Of a stretch of DNA of 29,153 nucleotides, positions 11,180-26,377 are shown piece by piece (the stretch's first letter is position 1; every line of letters starts with the position of its first letter). The notes beneath the pieces are model-generated. The model was not told where the DNA came from. It searched no databases and saw only the letters and a program-made list of their open reading frames with translations. The DNA is taken from positions 1 to 29,153 of IMG/VR virus record IMGVR_UViG_3300022707_000867. One strand, 5' to 3'. This DNA comes from a virus. The translations under genes were made by a program, and so were the position numbers.

Positions 11180-11793
11180 TAGCTACCTACCCAATCTATA
11201 ACAGTTTTTAATACTGATTTATTAGTTGCTTCTGTTGGGGTTACTTGTTCCTGTCTTCCCCGTTTTTCAGCAGATGATCCTTGCTCAGTTGGCGACCCCG
11301 CTGCTAATTGTTCTGGTGAAAGTTGTACAATTTCTGATTCAACAATTAGAACTTCTTTTAAAGTAATAAACATATCAACAATGCGCGAACTATCTTTATC
11401 CTGATTGGTATCAATGCTAGTAATCATCATATTGGTATACAATTTTAATTTCGTTTGTACATCAATCGGTTCACGTTGTTCTTGTAATTGAACTAATGCA
11501 TTATATGCGGCATTACTTCTTGTGATATTTTCATCATTAGAAGTACCAAACAACCCGGTAACGAGATCAACTATTTGACCCAAAGCAGCAACGCCTAAAG
11601 GGGTATCAGAAACAACTGCATTGATGTTTATTACTTTAGGTTCAATAACAGCATGGTCAGTAATGTCAGCGCCGAATTCAACAGGGTTATTAGTTAATCT
11701 AACAACAGAGCTGTGCGCCTCAGTTATTACTGCATCGAGGGTAATACCCCCTAATGATTTTTGTGTGCGTATGAATAGATTTTCAAAAGCCAT
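11179..11793 (-). CDS. Dit-like baseplate protein
   Basis: 204-aa protein starting MAFENLFIRTQKSLGGITLDAVITE, with NPVEFGADITDHAVIEPKVI in the first third: the layout of Dit-like N-terminal domains in myovirus baseplate proteins (a beta domain with a 'D-H-x-x-x-x-P' element). The middle has LQEQREPIDVQTKLKLYTNMMITSI and the last 45 residues are low-complexity, polar and probably flexible. Start ATG in TAATG overlap with the tape-measure stop. It likely forms the ring where tube meets baseplate. Confidence 0.72.
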   Translation of the reverse strand: MAFENLFIRTQKSLGGITLDAVITEAHSSVVRLTNNPVEFGADITDHAVIEPKVININAVVSDTPLGVAALGQIVDLVTGLFGTSNDENITRSNAAYNALVQLQEQREPIDVQTKLKLYTNMMITSIDTNQDKDSSRIVDMFITLKEVLIVESEIVQLSPEQLAAGSPTEQGSSAEKRGRQEQVTPTEATNKSVLKTVIDWVGS

Positions 11794-13166
11794 TATTGTT
11801 CAACCGTACCTTCTAAATTTTCCGCTGTTTGTTGAAAAATATTAAATACAGCGTTAGCCACTGCTTGAGGATCTCCTGCACCGGGTACTGATATTTCAAT
11901 TTTATCTACTCTAATACCTGCACTAGATCCCTTAGAAGGTATCAAAGTTGGTGCTAGTACTTGTGCAGCTAGTATATCGGCTTCAGTTTGACCGCCAAAT
12001 ACACCCGTTACAAAATCAGGTAAATTACTAAAAAATTCGCCAATATCCAAATCAAATATTTTAGACCACCCGTCAAATATTACCTGCGTAAAATCAGCTA
12101 GTAGTCCAAATGTACCCGCCACTATTTTTAATTCTTTATTCCATTCAGGAAACTTTTCAAGCATATCCCCTATAAAACTTTCACCGCCTTCAAAAAAGGT
12201 TTTAGCATCTTCTATTAATGCAACAAAAGCAACAGCCGCTGCTGCAAGTAAAGCGGGTAATAAGAAAGCGGCAGCAGTAGCAGCTAGCGTGACTACTGTT
12301 AGTCCTTTAAATAAAGTTATCAGCGCTACAAGGTGTCCCACTAATCTAAAGGCAAGAAAACCGCCTACGGCAATCGTTAACAATTTAATACCCGATGTAA
12401 TTTTATCAATCCATTCAGGTAATTTTAATTTAATTAAATCTTTGTTTGTTTTCCACCATTCAGTAAAATTATTATTTAATTCTTTCATTCCAGGGGCCAA
12501 CGCTTTAGCAATAGTACGGGTAACATCTTTCGTTATTTGCCAAACGTCAGTTAATGAATCTTGAAAGTCAGCAGCAATTAAAGCATCTTCAGCAGTGGTA
12601 ACACCTAATGCCCGCGCTTCAGCAGTTAAGGCTGCTATTGATCCTCTACCTTGTTGGAGTAATCGTATTGAATCTCGAATGCCTAACTTATCAGCTAATT
12701 CGATTTGTTTTGATTTACCTAATGTTTCAAATTGTTTAGCCACTTCTGACATCAGATCAGTAGTTGTTTTTAAATTACCATTTGCATCGAGTACTTCTAT
12801 ACCTAATAAACCGAATGCTTCAACGCCTGAACCTACCCCCCTTGCCGCTTCTGATGCTCTAACGGCTAAACTCCTAAGACTATTAGTCATCCCGTCAGCA
12901 GTACCACCTGACCGTTTTAAAGCAAATTGCAATGCATCAATATTTTCAACAGTGTCACCTATTTCAGCAGCAAGTTTACCCTGTTCATCTGATGCCAAAG
13001 TAGAGGCTACAACAAGACCTGTAATAGCAGCAGCCCCTGCTACCGCCGCCCTAGTTAAACCTTTAACTAAGTCAACGCTTTTTTTGATATCGTCATTGAA
13101 CTTTTTAGATTCTTTTGGATCATATTCAAATCCTAAGCCTACTAATAGTTCATCGAGAAGGGGCAT
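11793..13166 (-). CDS. Tail tape measure protein
   Basis: 457-aa protein that sets tail length and probably helps DNA passage. The N-terminus is helical with an alanine-rich hydrophobic stretch (about 36-56). Residues 70-225 are soluble and rich in Leu/Ala heptads; residues 261-318 form a long hydrophobic region (IAVGGFLAFRLVGHLVALI, then LAATAAAFLLPALLAAAAVAF) typical of tape measures. It is short for the family; at the common rule of about 0.15 nm per residue it would correspond to a tail near 70 nm, an estimate only. It follows the frameshifted tail chaperone gene directly, the position where a tape measure is expected. Confidence 0.88.
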   Translation of the reverse strand: MPLLDELLVGLGFEYDPKESKKFNDDIKKSVDLVKGLTRAAVAGAAAITGLVVASTLASDEQGKLAAEIGDTVENIDALQFALKRSGGTADGMTNSLRSLAVRASEAARGVGSGVEAFGLLGIEVLDANGNLKTTTDLMSEVAKQFETLGKSKQIELADKLGIRDSIRLLQQGRGSIAALTAEARALGVTTAEDALIAADFQDSLTDVWQITKDVTRTIAKALAPGMKELNNNFTEWWKTNKDLIKLKLPEWIDKITSGIKLLTIAVGGFLAFRLVGHLVALITLFKGLTVVTLAATAAAFLLPALLAAAAVAFVALIEDAKTFFEGGESFIGDMLEKFPEWNKELKIVAGTFGLLADFTQVIFDGWSKIFDLDIGEFFSNLPDFVTGVFGGQTEADILAAQVLAPTLIPSKGSSAGIRVDKIEISVPGAGDPQAVANAVFNIFQQTAENLEGTVEQ

Positions 13167-13168
13167 TT

Positions 13169-13788
13169 TTAAGACTTTCCTTTTTTAGGCTTAGGTGCTA
13201 AATGAATTTTTAAATCTAGTAACTCATTTAATAAAAATAAATCATTAAAAGAATAAGTTCCATCTTGCAATTCTTTTAATGTACACATCGGCGGATCAGT
13301 TAATAACGGACGATGCAAAAAAGAATCCACATTTGGAAACAGTTTAGGATCTATAGTTTGTCCTTTACTTTGTCCAGAAAGCGATCCGCTAACTTTCCTT
13401 TCATTAAATTTGCATAGTTGACTTTAATGACAAAAATAAAGATTTTGTAAGCATCTATTAAATCATCACCTGAAAATAATTCTTCAAAGGAGGGTGCTGT
13501 TATCCTGGCATCATCACAGCCAACACCTATAACAAAGCTTTTAATTAGTTTAACCATATCTTCAGGATCATTTTTATCGAATAAAGCTGATAACCCTTTT
13601 GCTAAAGCTTCAGCATCTTCAGCATCAGTTGCTTTTCCTTTTAGATTCAATTGAGCCGCAATTATAGCCAATGTTGATCCAAAGGTTTTAGCTAATCTAA
13701 ATTTATTAGTCATTGCTGTTGTTGCGGGCCATTGGGTAACGCTTATTTCATGATCGCCTATTACTTTTGTTTCAGTCTTACAAGTCAT
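13169..13788 (-). CDS. Tail assembly chaperone, -1 frameshift fusion product
   Basis: Predicted 206-aa fusion: 128 zero-frame residues, then a slip back by one base at AAATTTA (13411-13405 on the minus strand) and 78 residues in the -1 frame, ending at TAA 13171-13169, two nt before the tape measure ATG. The extension has no stop from the slip site onward and looks protein-like: TIDPKLFPNVDSFLHRPLL, a TLKELQDGTYSFNDLFLLNELL stretch and a basic end PKPKKGKS. No ATG with a ribosome binding site could express it alone. Such two-product chaperones (gpG/gpGT, E/E') are usual before tape measure genes. The slip itself is a prediction. Confidence 0.8.
13351..13788 (-). CDS. Tail assembly chaperone, zero-frame product
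   Basis: 145-aa cytosolic protein in the place of lambda gpG / P2 gpE, which keep the tape measure soluble while the tube assembles around it. It begins MTCKTETKVIGDHEISVTQW, has an AEDAEALAKGLSALFDKNDPE helix pair in the middle and ends DKVKDKL at an in-frame TAG. GGGAG lies 8 nt before the ATG. A -1 frame extension runs from codon 128 to just before the tape measure start (see separate entry). The family is assigned from position, length and the frameshift arrangement. Confidence 0.82.
   Translation of the reverse strand: MTCKTETKVIGDHEISVTQWPATTAMTNKFRLAKTFGSTLAIIAAQLNLKGKATDAEDAEALAKGLSALFDKNDPEDMVKLIKSFVIGVGCDDARITAPSFEELFSGDDLIDAYKIFIFVIKVNYANLMKGKLADRFLDKVKDKL
13405..13411 (-). promoter_or_regulatory. 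Slippery heptamer for -1 ribosomal frameshift
   Basis: Minus-strand 5'-A AAT TTA-3', in the correct phase (zero-frame codons gca-aat-tta), fits X XXY YYZ. Both tRNAs can re-pair after slipping. A weak downstream stem AGCG-GAT-CGCT (13390-13380) follows about 14 nt later; a stronger stimulator is not evident. Confidence 0.75.
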
Positions 13789-13816
13789 TTTAAAATCTCC
13801 CGGTCAAATAACTTTT

Positions 13817-13893
13817 CCGGCCTTAACTAATTCTGAAAAAGAGCTATTACATTAAGGCCGGGGTCAATGCAATATCAGCGCTCTTTTTCAGAA
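13817..13893 (-). repeat. Two interleaved perfect inverted repeats between tube and chaperone genes
   Basis: Arm A CCGGCCTTAA (13817-13826) pairs with 13852-13861, 10 bp perfect. Arm B TTCTGAAAAAGAGC (13831-13844) pairs with 13880-13893, 14 bp perfect. The order A-B-A'-B' means the two stems are interleaved: a pseudoknot, or two mutually exclusive hairpins, in the minus-strand transcript. Read on that strand: B arm, 18 nt, A arm, 7 nt, B arm, 4 nt, A arm, then 28 nt to the chaperone ATG. Neither stem is followed by a T-run, so it is not a simple intrinsic terminator. It fills most of the 118-nt gap between tail tube and chaperone, where expression must drop from a major to a minor protein. 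Confidence 0.9.
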
Positions 13894-13906
13894 ACTGGTT
13901 TAAATC

Positions 13907-14320
13907 TTATCCATGTAGCATATCAAGTCTTTCAATGACAACAGACCACTCTTGAGCGTTCGCATTTTCACCTCTTGACATATCAGCAGGTCGCTTTAAA
14001 TATCCCTGTGTACCTGATGCCAAATCATTACCTTTAACATCTTTAAATTGTGCAAAGATAGGAACAAAAGCGCCGTTTTCTTGAGCAGCAATAAGACCTG
14101 ATAAAAAGGCATTTGAATCTGATGATTGCATTAAACGAAAAGCCATCATTCCCGATCTATCAGCACTTATTGATAACGTCATTTCGCCGTCATTACCAAT
14201 TTTGTGTGATGCTGAATCATTTAATCTAGCGATGTCAATAGAAGCATCACCTTCATCAAAACCGCTGATTTCAATACCTTGAATTAGCAATAAGGTATTT
14301 AAAAAACTATACTCTTTCAT
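13907..14320 (-). CDS. Tail tube protein (DUF3277)
   Basis: 137-aa inner tube protein. The DUF3277 pattern is clear: RLNDSASHKIGNDGEMTLSI, SADRSGMMAFRLMQSSDSN, then VPIFAQFKDVKGNDLASGTQ, YLKRPADMSRGENAN and a final QEWSVVIERLDMLHG. Length is as expected. AAGGAG 8 nt before the ATG gives a strong ribosome binding site, fitting a protein needed in many copies. It follows the sheath gene by 12 nt and precedes the structured 118-nt gap. Confidence 0.9.
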   Translation of the reverse strand: MKEYSFLNTLLLIQGIEISGFDEGDASIDIARLNDSASHKIGNDGEMTLSISADRSGMMAFRLMQSSDSNAFLSGLIAAQENGAFVPIFAQFKDVKGNDLASGTQGYLKRPADMSRGENANAQEWSVVIERLDMLHG

Positions 14321-14332
14321 TTCATTTTCTCC

Positions 14333-15808
14333 TTATCGCTCAAATACACCATTGATTTGAACACCGTGAATTGCACCCGCACCAAGTATAACAAAACTTA
14401 ATCCGTTATATTGACGAGCAGTTTTATTTGACGCGCTAACATCAGCAACAGCAATCAAAGTAGTTTTATAACCTAATGGTAAAAACTCATCATCGATAGT
14501 CGTACCAGGGGCGATAAAACCATTTACAACAGCTTCATCTAACGCCTTGATTGTCTGCTGCTCTAGCGCTGCTGTACCTTTATCAGTAAAGGGTACTTTA
14601 GTTGTGCGGGTTAATAAGTATCCAAAGACATTAGTTTCAATTGCATCAGTTAACCAATCGACACCATGCACTTCATCAAAGAAAACCCCATCAGCCATAA
14701 ACGATTCAGCAAACATAACACTTGCGCCAACGGTAATTAACGCATTAGCACTTTTAGAATCTAAAACGGCCTTTTGATTTTGGGTTAATGCTTCAACCGT
14801 GATCCCTGGCATCTGTTTAAACTTCAATGTGATCGTGCTATTAGGCTGATCAAAATTAACCGTGAATGCTCGACCTAAAATAGATGCTGAAGGATACTGA
14901 GCAGCAAAAGAACTAAAGGTTGTCATTGTTCTACGATATTTTGCCGTTTGTAAAACAGAAGCAATATCATTAGTTGTTACACTATCCAATACATCTAAAT
15001 CATTTGAAGTATTACCGAAAACTTTAACCCTTGCTTCAGCCCAGGATGCAGCAGCGTCAACTGCATTTTCAGCATTGATAACAACAAGATCTCGAACCTC
15101 TTTGGTAAACATAAAACCGTACCAATCAGGATCAACATTTTGGATGGCATCTAATGACGCGGTAATTGTTTCAGCTGCAAAACCATCGGCTTTCGTTCCT
15201 TCACCCTGTTGCATTTGCAATAGTGAAGAAATGTCAGTACCTGTCGCAGGGCTAACAACGGTTAAAAAACTAATCGTTGAAGTGACACCTGTTGTACCCG
15301 ATGTAATAAAGAATCTTGAGCCGTCATGAATACAAGTGGATAAAGTATAACCGCCTGTTGCAACCACCCGTAACGCCGTCTGAATTGATGCGGCAATATC
15401 ATCTAAAGTAGTTTCGGTATCAGTAAAATCTAAAGCAGTAATATCTTGCGCATCCCCATCAATTGAAATAGCAAAACTACCATCTGAAATAAGTAATAAT
15501 GCCGTAGCACTAACAACCGATCCACCGCGTAACTCAGCAGCTTGATCCGTTGGGTATCGTGTAGAAACTTTTAACGATGTTGGTTTAGGTTGTTGACCAA
15601 AATAAGCAGTAGCTGCTTTATTAACTTCGGTTGTCGCATCCCAATCAGCCACAACACCATCAATATTTGAATATGATCTAATGCGTTCAGCAGTTCCAAT
15701 AACACCCGTTTCAGCCGTGACTATGTTAAGGGTTCCGAACCCTTTCCTAGCCGGAAACGTTGCACCGATTGCAATACTAACATTAACCACGCTTGAAACT
15801 GGAATCAT
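14333..15808 (-). CDS. Tail sheath protein (DUF3383)
   Basis: 491-aa contractile sheath protein of the DUF3383 family. N-terminus MIPVSSVVNVSIAIGATFPA, then FGTLNIVTAETGV and a YFGQQPKPTSLKV element near 75, all typical. The C-terminal third carries DEAVVNGFIAPGTTIDD and an aromatic end GLSFVILGAGAIHGVQINGVF, as in sheath proteins that exchange C-terminal strands. AGAGG lies 9 nt before the ATG, one nt after the upstream stop. Presence of sheath and tube together fixes the virion as a myovirus type. Confidence 0.9.
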   Translation of the reverse strand: MIPVSSVVNVSIAIGATFPARKGFGTLNIVTAETGVIGTAERIRSYSNIDGVVADWDATTEVNKAATAYFGQQPKPTSLKVSTRYPTDQAAELRGGSVVSATALLLISDGSFAISIDGDAQDITALDFTDTETTLDDIAASIQTALRVVATGGYTLSTCIHDGSRFFITSGTTGVTSTISFLTVVSPATGTDISSLLQMQQGEGTKADGFAAETITASLDAIQNVDPDWYGFMFTKEVRDLVVINAENAVDAAASWAEARVKVFGNTSNDLDVLDSVTTNDIASVLQTAKYRRTMTTFSSFAAQYPSASILGRAFTVNFDQPNSTITLKFKQMPGITVEALTQNQKAVLDSKSANALITVGASVMFAESFMADGVFFDEVHGVDWLTDAIETNVFGYLLTRTTKVPFTDKGTAALEQQTIKALDEAVVNGFIAPGTTIDDEFLPLGYKTTLIAVADVSASNKTARQYNGLSFVILGAGAIHGVQINGVFER

Positions 15809-17992: not shown

Positions 17993-18085
17993 ATCAGATA
18001 CACCCCTTATATTGGTCTTAGCTTCCACGGCATTACCCTTTAATTATTCTTTTAAATTACCTACTAGTTTCTAATAAATAATTTA

Positions 18086-18117
18086 AAAGAACCTCAACGG
18101 TTAAATTGAGGTTCTTT
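18086..18117 (-). terminator. Intrinsic terminator after capsid genes
   Basis: Perfect 12-bp stem (18086-18097 with 18106-18117) and 8-nt loop. On the minus strand the stem runs AAAGAACCTCAA / TTGAGGTTCTTT and continues into TTTTAAATTATT. It lies just after the last capsid-unit gene, which stops at 18140. On the plus strand the following bases (AGTTACG) give no T-run, so the direction is minus. Confidence 0.85.
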
Positions 18118-18139
18118 AGTTACGTTACTTTATCAAAAT

Positions 18140-21140: not shown

Positions 21141-21147
21141 TGGCTAA

Positions 21148-21164
21148 CCCTTAAGCAATAAGGG
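21148..21164 (-). promoter_or_regulatory. Hairpin sequestering the protease-scaffold ribosome binding site
   Basis: Minus strand CCCTTA-TTGCT-TAAGGG, 6-bp perfect stem with 5-nt loop. The 3' arm contains the AAGGG that serves as Shine-Dalgarno for the ATG at 21140 (7 nt away). It could damp translation of the protease. The stem is short, so the effect may be small. Confidence 0.5.
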
Positions 21165-21191
21165 CTAATATAATTGAAACCTAATATAAAA

Positions 21192-21220
21192 ACAATAGCT
21201 TAACACTAAATAATGGTCAA
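21192..21220 (-). promoter_or_regulatory. Candidate sigma70-type promoter for capsid unit
   Basis: Minus strand TTGACC (21220-21215), 17-nt spacer, TATTGT (21197-21192); transcript would start near 21185, about 45 nt before the protease-scaffold ATG. The -35 region lies in one arm of an imperfect 15-bp inverted repeat (21205-21219 with 21283-21297, 13 of 15 matching), a possible operator. With the terminator at 18086 this would bound a four-gene capsid unit. The rest of the 165-nt gap shows no coding frame. Confidence 0.45.
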
Positions 21221-21305
21221 AGTAGCCAAATACAGGTACATAACCCCACTATTTAGCCCCGTATGCCTACTAATAGTGTAACTGACCACTGTTTAGTCAA
21301 TTACA

Positions 21306-24580: not shown

Positions 24581-25321
24581 TTAAATGTTGTTGCCAGTAT
24601 ATAACATATCCTCGAAAACTAACATATCTTCAACAGCGTCAACCGTGGGATCTATTTGGTCATCGTGGGCATGTGTCATTAATGGCGTAAATTTTCTAAA
24701 CTCTTCTTTGTAATCATGTAACCAAGGAACATTAACAGGTAAATGAATAAAACCACTAGCAAAGTATTTAACAACTGCCATCGACCTTAAAATTTTATCA
24801 GTGTTACGTTGAATACCTTCTATCGGGATCGTGTAATCTTTTTTAATTGATTGTATTAGCCCTGTTCCTGAAACCTTATCTTCAATCTTTACACACTGAG
24901 CACCAAACGGTTTGTATTGAGTCGGTTTATGTTTATTCCAAAACTCAACTAATGTACTTTCTAATTCGGGGGCTTCCCATTTACCCCTAACCTGATCAAT
25001 TAAAAATACACCCATTGATTGCGAATGTGCCCAACATTGAAAAACACTGTAATCGTTATGCTCCTTTGTTTTTTGTGCAGTATCACCATAGATCCTAATC
25101 ACATCAATATCAGCAGGTAACACATCATAAGTTTTAAACCATTTGGTCTTAAACATTCCCCCGCCTAATTGCGTTTCATTTTGCTGCATCTGTGTATTAT
25201 AAGTATAGGGATCACCAACCTCTAAGATGCGTAATTGTTCTAACGTATGTTTAAAAGGCCATAGTGCGCCAACAGTTAAAACATCAGGTACAACGCCCAT
25301 ACATCTAGAGTTCAAAATCAT
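24581..25321 (-). CDS. Large terminase, C-terminal nuclease part (separate ORF)
   Basis: 246-aa ORF holding the end of the ATPase linker and the RNase H-like nuclease of the large terminase. It has the linker signature GALWPFKHTLEQL (18-30) and DPYTYNTQMQQN (37-48), then the nuclease: RIYGDTAQ (Asp80), CVKIEDKVSG (Glu147) and THAHDDQID (Asp220/221). All three acidic clusters are kept. It begins at ATG 25321 with GAGGG 8 nt upstream and overlaps the end of the ATPase ORF by 17 nt in the +1 frame. It is either a genuine second polypeptide or one half of a frame-disrupted gene. Confidence 0.85.
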   Translation of the reverse strand: MILNSRCMGVVPDVLTVGALWPFKHTLEQLRILEVGDPYTYNTQMQQNETQLGGGMFKTKWFKTYDVLPADIDVIRIYGDTAQKTKEHNDYSVFQCWAHSQSMGVFLIDQVRGKWEAPELESTLVEFWNKHKPTQYKPFGAQCVKIEDKVSGTGLIQSIKKDYTIPIEGIQRNTDKILRSMAVVKYFASGFIHLPVNVPWLHDYKEEFRKFTPLMTHAHDDQIDPTVDAVEDMLVFEDMLYTGNNI

Positions 25322-26171
25322 ATTGATCGCCCTCTTTAATGCATCTTAAAAGTTCATTAATATCTAATTGCATACCATGCGTATAATCTTCACTATATTT
25401 TTCATTTAAAAATTCTTCAGTAATGTTTGCAGGTAATGTTAAATGATGCCACATATCACCTGATCCGCCCCGTAATAAAAACCCGGATAGATCGCTTTCA
25501 TGTATTCGCTGCATGATGTTAATCATTGGTACTGACTCAACCGCTAAACGTGAACGCATTGTGTTATTAAATCGATTGTTAATTGCATTTCTTTTTGAAT
25601 CTGAAAAAGCGTCATCAGGTTTAACCGGATCATCATTAATAAATGCACCCGTAAAACCGGGCTCCATTCTTCCCGCTCTAAATCCTGTTATCTGACCTGC
25701 TGAAGGTGCTGCCATCATGCCTCCGCCAAATTCAGTAAACCAACGCTTCTTACCTTTCGTATCCATTCTAATTTTCATCGGCCAAATTTCTTGAAACTCG
25801 CCGCTTTCAATTGTGTCTTTAATTGTGCCTGAATTGAGTTTCACTAGGTCACCTGAATAAGAAGTGTGTATAAATTTAGCACGATGATTAATCGCTAACC
25901 CTCTTGCAATAAAATTTAGTACCGCCTGTTCTGTTTTTGTGTAACCAGGGCTAACATTAATTATTAATCGGTTTATATGACCGTCGATAACTGCTTGCAA
26001 AACATATTCAATAAGGTAGTGATGCCAATTTAAAATCATTCTGGTATTTTCACGCAACTTAAAAAAGTAACGCATGAATAACATACCGTCTGTTTCAAAC
26101 ATGTATTTTAACATTCGCCGTTCGTTATCAGACCAATCAAATTCTAGATCTTCAGCAGGTAAGGCAAGCAT
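25305..26171 (-). CDS. Large terminase, N-terminal ATPase part (separate ORF)
   Basis: 288-aa packaging motor ATPase, start chosen at ATG 26171 (TAATG overlap with the small ORF upstream; the frame is open to ATG 26216 but with no ribosome binding site). Walker A variant SPGYTKTE (74-81), Walker B region GAFINDD (175-181), and a coupling motif region NIMQRIHESDLSGFLL further on. It stops at TAG 25307-25305 after GDQYDFEL, before the nuclease domain, which continues at once in the +1 frame. Both halves are well kept, so the split is recent, functional or a sequence error. Confidence 0.85.
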   Translation of the reverse strand: MLALPAEDLEFDWSDNERRMLKYMFETDGMLFMRYFFKLRENTRMILNWHHYLIEYVLQAVIDGHINRLIINVSPGYTKTEQAVLNFIARGLAINHRAKFIHTSYSGDLVKLNSGTIKDTIESGEFQEIWPMKIRMDTKGKKRWFTEFGGGMMAAPSAGQITGFRAGRMEPGFTGAFINDDPVKPDDAFSDSKRNAINNRFNNTMRSRLAVESVPMINIMQRIHESDLSGFLLRGGSGDMWHHLTLPANITEEFLNEKYSEDYTHGMQLDINELLRCIKEGDQYDFEL

Positions 26172-26377
26172 TACGTTTCTTTTACTATTGGATAATAAGC
26201 ATTCGGCCATTCGCATGTTTCATGAGGAAAGGCTTTGTTTAGTTCTAATGGGCCAATAAAATAACGATAATTAAGGCATTCTTTTTTAGCTAACTGTTCA
26301 CAATCAAAAACCCCGCACATTTCCCATTCATTATTATCTTCGTTATCAAGATGTTTACCTACTGCAAATAATTTCAT
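26171..26377 (-). CDS. Small protein between terminase genes, unknown
   Basis: 68-aa acidic protein MKLFAVGKHLDNEDNNEWEM followed by GVFDCEQLAKKECLNYRYF and a Trp/Tyr-rich end. Both ends overlap neighbours by TAATG, so it belongs to the terminase transcript and is translationally coupled. Three Cys residues are spread without a clear metal motif. The compact beta-alpha style resembles many phage small proteins of unknown role; no function is assigned. Confidence 0.62.
   Translation of the reverse strand: MKLFAVGKHLDNEDNNEWEMCGVFDCEQLAKKECLNYRYFIGPLELNKAFPHETCEWPNAYYPIVKET

Follow-up and report, generated by a model that had tools for sequence, protein, structure and literature searches.

A hairpin with two downstream loop complements between the tail tube and tail chaperone genes of uncultured phages: a candidate translational switch

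The production of hundreds of tail tube subunits alongside little tail assembly chaperone from neighbouring genes of contractile-tailed phages is usually ascribed to weak ribosome-binding sites. The window, the whole 29,153-nt stretch analysed here, is a 29-kb fragment of an uncultured virus in which these two genes are separated by a 118-nt gap containing interleaved inverted repeats, which raises the question of what the gap contributes to chaperone expression. A comparison of the gap with those of its relatives indicates that the intergenic element probably sets the amount of tail assembly chaperone made.

Anatomy of the tube-chaperone gap

The tube gene product matches PHROG 280 (virion structural protein, E 4e-34), relatives of which carry the tail tube annotation in Chaseviridae records, and the product of the downstream cistron matches PHROG 1613 (tail assembly chaperone, E 7e-15). 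The flanking genes and the features of the gap are listed in Table 1. The sequence-only reading had described two perfect inverted repeats of 10 and 14 bp, arranged in the order A-B-A'-B', and had considered a chance origin very unlikely. Both repeats are exact, with 4 nt (13827-13830) separating A and B. Dinucleotide shuffles of the 118-nt gap produce a perfect inverted repeat of at least 14 bp in 1 of 20,000 cases and one of at least 10 bp in 201 of 20,000, in agreement with that judgement. The minus-strand gap folds at -33.6 kcal/mol, compared with -21.3 kcal/mol for its shuffles (z -3.8).

Table 1. Flanking genes and RNA features of the tube-chaperone gap, in the order of the minus strand
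Feature	Position	Strand	Remark
Sheath gene	14333-15808		with the tape measure gene, brackets the tube and chaperone pair
Tail tube gene, upstream cistron	13907-14320	minus	stop codon 13909-13907
Outer stem 5' arm (B')	13880-13893	minus	pairs perfectly with 13831-13844 over 14 bp; arms co-vary
One-sided 5' bulge GCTGA	13875-13879	minus	between outer and inner stem
Inner stem 5' arm	13864-13874	minus	from the fold; 11 bp with 13845-13855
Terminal loop CCCCGGCC	13856-13863	minus	overlaps A' (13852-13861); covaries with copy 1 and copy 2
Inner stem 3' arm	13845-13855	minus	from the fold
Outer stem 3' arm (B)	13831-13844	minus	perfect repeat and fold
Copy 1 TTAAGGCCGG (A)	13817-13826	minus	loop complement; perfect 10-bp repeat with A'
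Copy 2 GACCGGGAG	13797-13805	minus	chaperone Shine-Dalgarno and second loop complement
Tail assembly chaperone gene, downstream cistron	13351-13788	minus	AUG 13788-13786
Tape measure gene	11793-13166		see sheath gene

In the RNA, B and B' account for the outer stem only, and the A/A' repeat represents the complementarity of copy 1 with the loop, which extends to the first bases of the inner stem 3' arm. A second complement, copy 2, lies about 12-15 nt downstream of copy 1 and covers the chaperone Shine-Dalgarno sequence ACCGGGAG; its CCGGG (13799-13803) is complementary to CCCGG of the loop. The earlier description is therefore accurate for the two repeats and incomplete for the RNA, as it lacked the 11-bp inner stem and the copy on the Shine-Dalgarno sequence. 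It had also proposed a choice between two alternative hairpins, whereas the data point to a single constitutive hairpin, the loop of which switches between copy 1 and copy 2. The full 10-bp A/A' pairing would need partial opening of the inner stem, whereas a 6-bp helix of the loop with copy 1, or a helix of the loop with the Shine-Dalgarno sequence, need not open it.

A descriptor comprising a hairpin plus two complements of its loop matches only the tube-chaperone gap in the window. In the relatives, it matches the tube-chaperone gap on the sense strand only, plus one chance site in relative L146. A DNA search of the gap against its own record returns only the gap itself, and this single-copy sequence rules out a dispersed repeat or mobile element.

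Layout and compensatory change in relatives

Searching IMG/VR with protein profiles of the tube and the chaperone yielded about 70 distinct contigs carrying the gene pair, and the element is found in 41 different gap sequences among them (about 40 distinct relatives). Its primary sequence varies, whereas its layout is nearly invariant; only the pairing rules and two core Cs are shared by all. The outer stem is mostly 9-15 bp and the inner stem mostly 5-13 bp among the 41 members. Of the 41 members folded, 40 have a one-sided 5' bulge facing 0-1 nt; it measures 3-8 nt except in L038 (11 nt), and L027 has no single large bulge. The stem base lies 3-7 nt past the tube stop in most of the 41 members and 13 nt past it in the window, and copy 2 is located 5-10 nt upstream of the AUG in 40 of 40 members; L039 has no clear copy 2.

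The element is missing entirely from other members of the tube clade. There is no gap in L037, L043, L145 and L006, where tube stop and chaperone start are no more than about 4-30 nt apart, and the isolated Chaseviridae relatives VPs20 and PVN03 have 19-nt gaps from which the element is absent. L005 and Shewanella phage Spp001 carry a different, terminator-like hairpin at the junction. Because some relatives are gapless and others have this different hairpin, control at the tube-chaperone junction seems to recur in several different forms. A search of genome contigs for relatives of the tube protein found none. Scans of the genome and viral collections for a DNA pattern of three CCGG-type motifs returned mostly chance matches in high-GC genomes and are not taken as evidence.

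Whole-gap alignment with MAFFT loses the register of the stem, and stem covariation was therefore tested by swapping arms. In this alignment-free test, own partners were compared with swapped partners for 30 gaps less than 80% identical, with 20,000 permutations for each pairing. The mean energies are -28.1 kcal/mol (own) and -13.1 kcal/mol (swapped) for the stem arms (z -18.8), -14.7 and -11.2 kcal/mol for the loop with copy 1 (z -8.3), and -12.2 and -9.7 kcal/mol for the loop with copy 2 (z -6.1), and 0 of 20,000 permutations reach the own value in any of the three (n=30). The positions of the loop and of both copies were partly picked by eye; the copy 2 region used in the swap test was preset as the last 20 nt upstream of the AUG.

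Examination of the aligned columns of 29 sequences gives the same picture. For copy 1, 77.9% of the cells are paired over 10 positions and both partners have changed in 32 of the cells; for copy 2, the corresponding values are 80.6% and 23. None of 500 shuffles attains the observed percentage or covariation score for either copy; because the shuffles keep relatedness, phylogeny matters for these counts. Sliding either pairing by one base sharply lowers the signal. The loop core CCGG has changed to CCAG in L038, L141 and L137/L142 and to CCGA in L027, L050 and L103, each in about three events on the tube-protein tree, and both copies changed with the core every time (Table 2). As this tree is poorly resolved, the figure of about six core changes is an estimate.

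Table 2. Loop and copy sequences of relatives with a changed loop core
Relative	Loop	Copy 1	Copy 2
L038	ACCAGCC	GGCTGGT	GACTGG
L141	CCCAGCC	GGCTGGG	GCTGGG
L137	ACCAGCCTT	GGCTGG	AAGGCTGGT
L050	CCGACAC	GTGTCGG	GTCGG
L027	ACCCGACA	TGTCGGG	TCGGGT
L103	CCGATC	GATCGG	GATCGG

Individual relatives show how closely the loop follows the ribosome-binding site. The Shine-Dalgarno sequence of L137 has shifted to TAAGG, and its loop has acquired the matching CCTT. In L046 and L054, the pairing of the loop with the Shine-Dalgarno region spans about 14 and 10 contiguous positions, respectively, and is better than that with copy 1. In most members, it is the copy 1 pairing that is the stronger. The two copies also use the loop differently: positions l7 and l8 are paired with copy 1 in 34/41 and 38/41 members and with copy 2 in 16/40 and 25/40, whereas l1 is paired with copy 2 in 30/40 and with copy 1 in 23/41. 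Position l7 is mismatched in 24 of 40 copy 2 pairings, and the resulting helix is often only 4-6 bp.

Sense and antisense versions of the hairpin were compared in the 41 members. In 35 of them, the sense RNA forms the stabler hairpin (p 1e-6; mean difference -3.8 kcal/mol), which is what tolerance of G-U pairs in the transcript would predict. The same comparison for the loop-copy duplexes alone gives no sense-strand preference, and at one copy 2 position A-C mismatches outnumber G-U pairs; the strand polarity consequently rests on the hairpin. A protein-binding repeat or palindrome acting at the DNA level, which had been listed as a candidate, is not supported, because the stem sequences vary freely, to the point of complete divergence, and the sense fold is preferred. 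Additionally, the chaperone Shine-Dalgarno sequence is weaker than that of the tube gene in 25 of 36 cases, which is consistent with lower chaperone synthesis.

The comparison among relatives shows that the hairpin exists, that it belongs to the minus-strand transcript and that its loop pairs with both copies, and it is virtually certain that the gap encodes a conserved structured RNA. The compensatory changes occur for both repeats of the original description and back its suggestion of a functional minus-strand RNA placed for control of the chaperone. Pairing of the loop with the Shine-Dalgarno region is very likely a part of what the element does.

A candidate switch and its alternatives

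We consider, with a probability of roughly two in three, that the intergenic RNA is a cis-acting translational switch of the chaperone. The long hairpin just past the tube stop would display its GC-rich loop, and pairing of the loop with copy 2 would cover the chaperone Shine-Dalgarno sequence and block initiation (OFF). Copy 1 would act as a decoy partner, and its pairing with the loop would free the Shine-Dalgarno sequence (ON). The two pairings are mutually exclusive because both use the central four bases of the loop. We infer the repression by copy 2, the relief by copy 1 and the trigger discussed below from this arrangement. The outcome would be a low and regulated supply of the chaperone and its frameshift product beside abundant tube protein. 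The pairing of copy 1 is extended mainly on the 3' side of the loop, and copy 2 pairs somewhat more often at l1, which is the layout of a strand-exchange switch. ON could be the resting state, given that the copy 1 pairing is the stronger of the two in most members. A translation switch had been one of several functions suggested earlier and is the best-fitting of them, because the loop follows the Shine-Dalgarno region by compensatory change. Such an element provides a specific, testable RNA mechanism at the tube-chaperone step, conserved in a diverse clade of uncultured phages, and a loop with two mutually exclusive partners, the Shine-Dalgarno sequence among them, would constitute a compact RNA switch portable to reporters.

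The favoured trigger is translation termination on the tube gene: the ribosome would melt the hairpin base, and copy 1 could then reach and capture the loop, turning the chaperone on. We regard this ribosome-gated exchange as less likely than not. While the hairpin is intact, only the Shine-Dalgarno copy would reach the loop and the chaperone would be off; after melting, branch migration across the shared core would transfer the loop to copy 1. The reach of each copy was estimated roughly from lengths (6.2 A per nt, straight A-form stem). With an intact straight stem, the linker would let copy 2 reach the loop in all 40 members and copy 1 in 16 of 41. If a ribosome halted at the tube stop occupies about 10 nt beyond it and opens the base of the stem, copy 1 would reach the loop in 34 of 37 members, compared with 14 of the same 37 with the stem intact. 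Alternatively, the conserved one-sided bulge, which sits roughly one turn of the helix above the stem base, may bend the hairpin and so bring copy 1 within reach of the loop. In the window, the 13 nt between stop and stem mean that a terminating ribosome would hardly touch the stem, a poor fit to gating. If gating holds, chaperone synthesis would be metered by tube translation with no protein factor.

The same geometry can be read in the opposite sense, with pairing of the loop to copy 1 (or copy 2) promoting chaperone translation, for example by handing on ribosomes that terminate on the tube gene, in the manner of the repZ/repA pseudoknots of I-complex plasmids. In the repZ/repA system, the loop of a hairpin is complementary to a short stretch near the downstream start, with which it pairs, and the upstream ORF ends near the hairpin; the pseudoknot activates translation, with an antisense RNA as competitor for the loop. 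The present element resembles that layout in the loop pairing beside the downstream start, in the upstream ORF ending near the hairpin (a translated ORF ends at the hairpin base in most of the 41 members, where the stem starts 3-7 nt past the stop) and in a pseudoknot serving as the translational switch. It differs in having two downstream complements, one on the Shine-Dalgarno sequence, and in that the upstream ORF is a structural gene. L103 and L027 keep copy 2 despite a very weak Shine-Dalgarno sequence, which also favours activation. However, copy 2 lies on the Shine-Dalgarno sequence itself, where pairing should block 30S binding, and an antisense promoter pattern was not found in the region: a consensus promoter scan, which is weak evidence, detected no plus-strand promoter reading into the hairpin. 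An activating pseudoknot is considered improbable.

The nearly continuous stem of about 16-25 bp, with its asymmetric bulge, is compatible with the sizes of phage RNase III sites, and the element may be imagined as a site at which RNase III or another endonuclease splits the tube and chaperone messages, the loop complementarity being secondary. However, this leaves the compensatory tracking of two downstream sequences by the loop unexplained, and we give the proposal very little weight. An autogenous operator, in which the tube protein, the chaperone or another phage protein binds hairpin and pseudoknot and represses the chaperone, in the way of gp32 or ribosomal proteins, is similarly far from probable. 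The layout matches known pseudoknot operators (PMC3014915, PMC10931766), and the proposal is compatible with the translational-switch reading; however, almost no stem or bulge sequence is conserved outside the pairing rules, and there is no obvious protein recognition site. A transcription attenuator or terminator, also among the functions first suggested, is highly unlikely: L005 and Spp001 have the hairpins mentioned above and a few members have T-rich stretches past the stem, but 13300-14400 of the window contains 0 terminator-like sites (GC-rich stem, short loop, T run), and the stem is followed by AATTAGTTAAGG.

Comparison with known RNA elements and other observations

The element is a new RNA family that would work like known translational pseudoknots. 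In Rfam 15, the window has no match at the gathering threshold, and searches with the window element and 7 relatives at E up to 5 gave one chance match only, elsewhere in L039. A search of openly accessible papers found no described RNA element at the tail tube-chaperone junction. The general feature of pseudoknots that sequester a Shine-Dalgarno sequence, a loop that pairs with the downstream ribosome-binding site, is present and supported by covariation. The repZ/repA pseudoknot of the I-complex plasmids (IncI-alpha, IncB, IncL/M) is represented by titles in the reference list of PMC10724649. In the E. coli bL20 (infC-rpmI-rplT), uS4 and uS15 operators, a pseudoknot at the ribosome-binding site sets translation of the next gene (PMC10931766). 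These intercistronic or leader pseudoknots resemble the present element in involving the ribosome-binding site, but they are bound by a ribosomal protein through rRNA mimicry, whereas the element has no conserved recognition sequence.

Very few phage mRNA pseudoknots controlling translation initiation have been described, and gene 32 is the standard example; according to a 2010 review, that of T4, T2 and RB69 was perhaps the only viral pseudoknot in translational autoregulation (PMC3014915). Like the present element, it is a phage mRNA pseudoknot that precedes a ribosome-binding site. The pseudoknot of gene 32, which nucleates gp32, is located 67 nt upstream, whereas the element described here covers the Shine-Dalgarno sequence and has a competitor. 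Sequestration of the Shine-Dalgarno sequence in a pseudoknot is likewise seen in preQ1-type translational riboswitches. Unlike these, the element has no conserved aptamer nucleotides, and its loop and stems vary as long as pairing is kept; a riboswitch is rejected because no ligand-binding nucleotides are conserved, the pairing rules and the two core Cs being the only invariants.

The chaperone gene contains an in-frame slippery heptamer, A_AAT_TTA, at 13411-13405 on the minus strand, and its -1 frame is open until a stop at 13169, directly before the tape measure start. The heptamer and the open frame (13169-13411) likely represent a programmed frameshift of the lambda G/GT type. A role of the element as a -1 frameshifting pseudoknot is rejected because the element is intergenic, after the tube stop and before the chaperone start, at the other end of the gene from this likely slippery site.

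Several further observations were made in the relatives. In the Chaseviridae phage Spp001 (contig L011), the terminator-like hairpin at the tube-chaperone junction, at about 1957-2062, is followed by a promoter-like sequence. The gap of L005, after 3408, contains a hairpin of the same shape as the element with a U-rich 3' side and no loop complement at the Shine-Dalgarno sequence, possibly a decayed element or a terminator. In L103, where a Shine-Dalgarno sequence is almost lacking, ATGATCGGTAATTTAAA occurs twice in tandem upstream of 2501 and includes copy 1 and copy 2; this hints that either copy can arise by duplication of the other.

Elsewhere in the window, the gap between two structural genes at 18029-18139 contains a perfect 12-bp hairpin (AAGAACCTCAAT..GTTGAGGTTCTT) that precedes TT and looks like an intrinsic terminator; the remainder of that gap can form a second long AT-rich hairpin. 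The 165-nt gap between the head protease and head morphogenesis genes (21141-21305) has an unusually good fold (-49 kcal/mol) with several hairpins. The terminase large subunit is split on the minus strand into two ORFs, 25305-26216 and 24581-25321, which overlap by 17 nt and match adjacent parts of PHROG 38; the split may be due to a frameshift, to an error in the assembly or to a programmed event.
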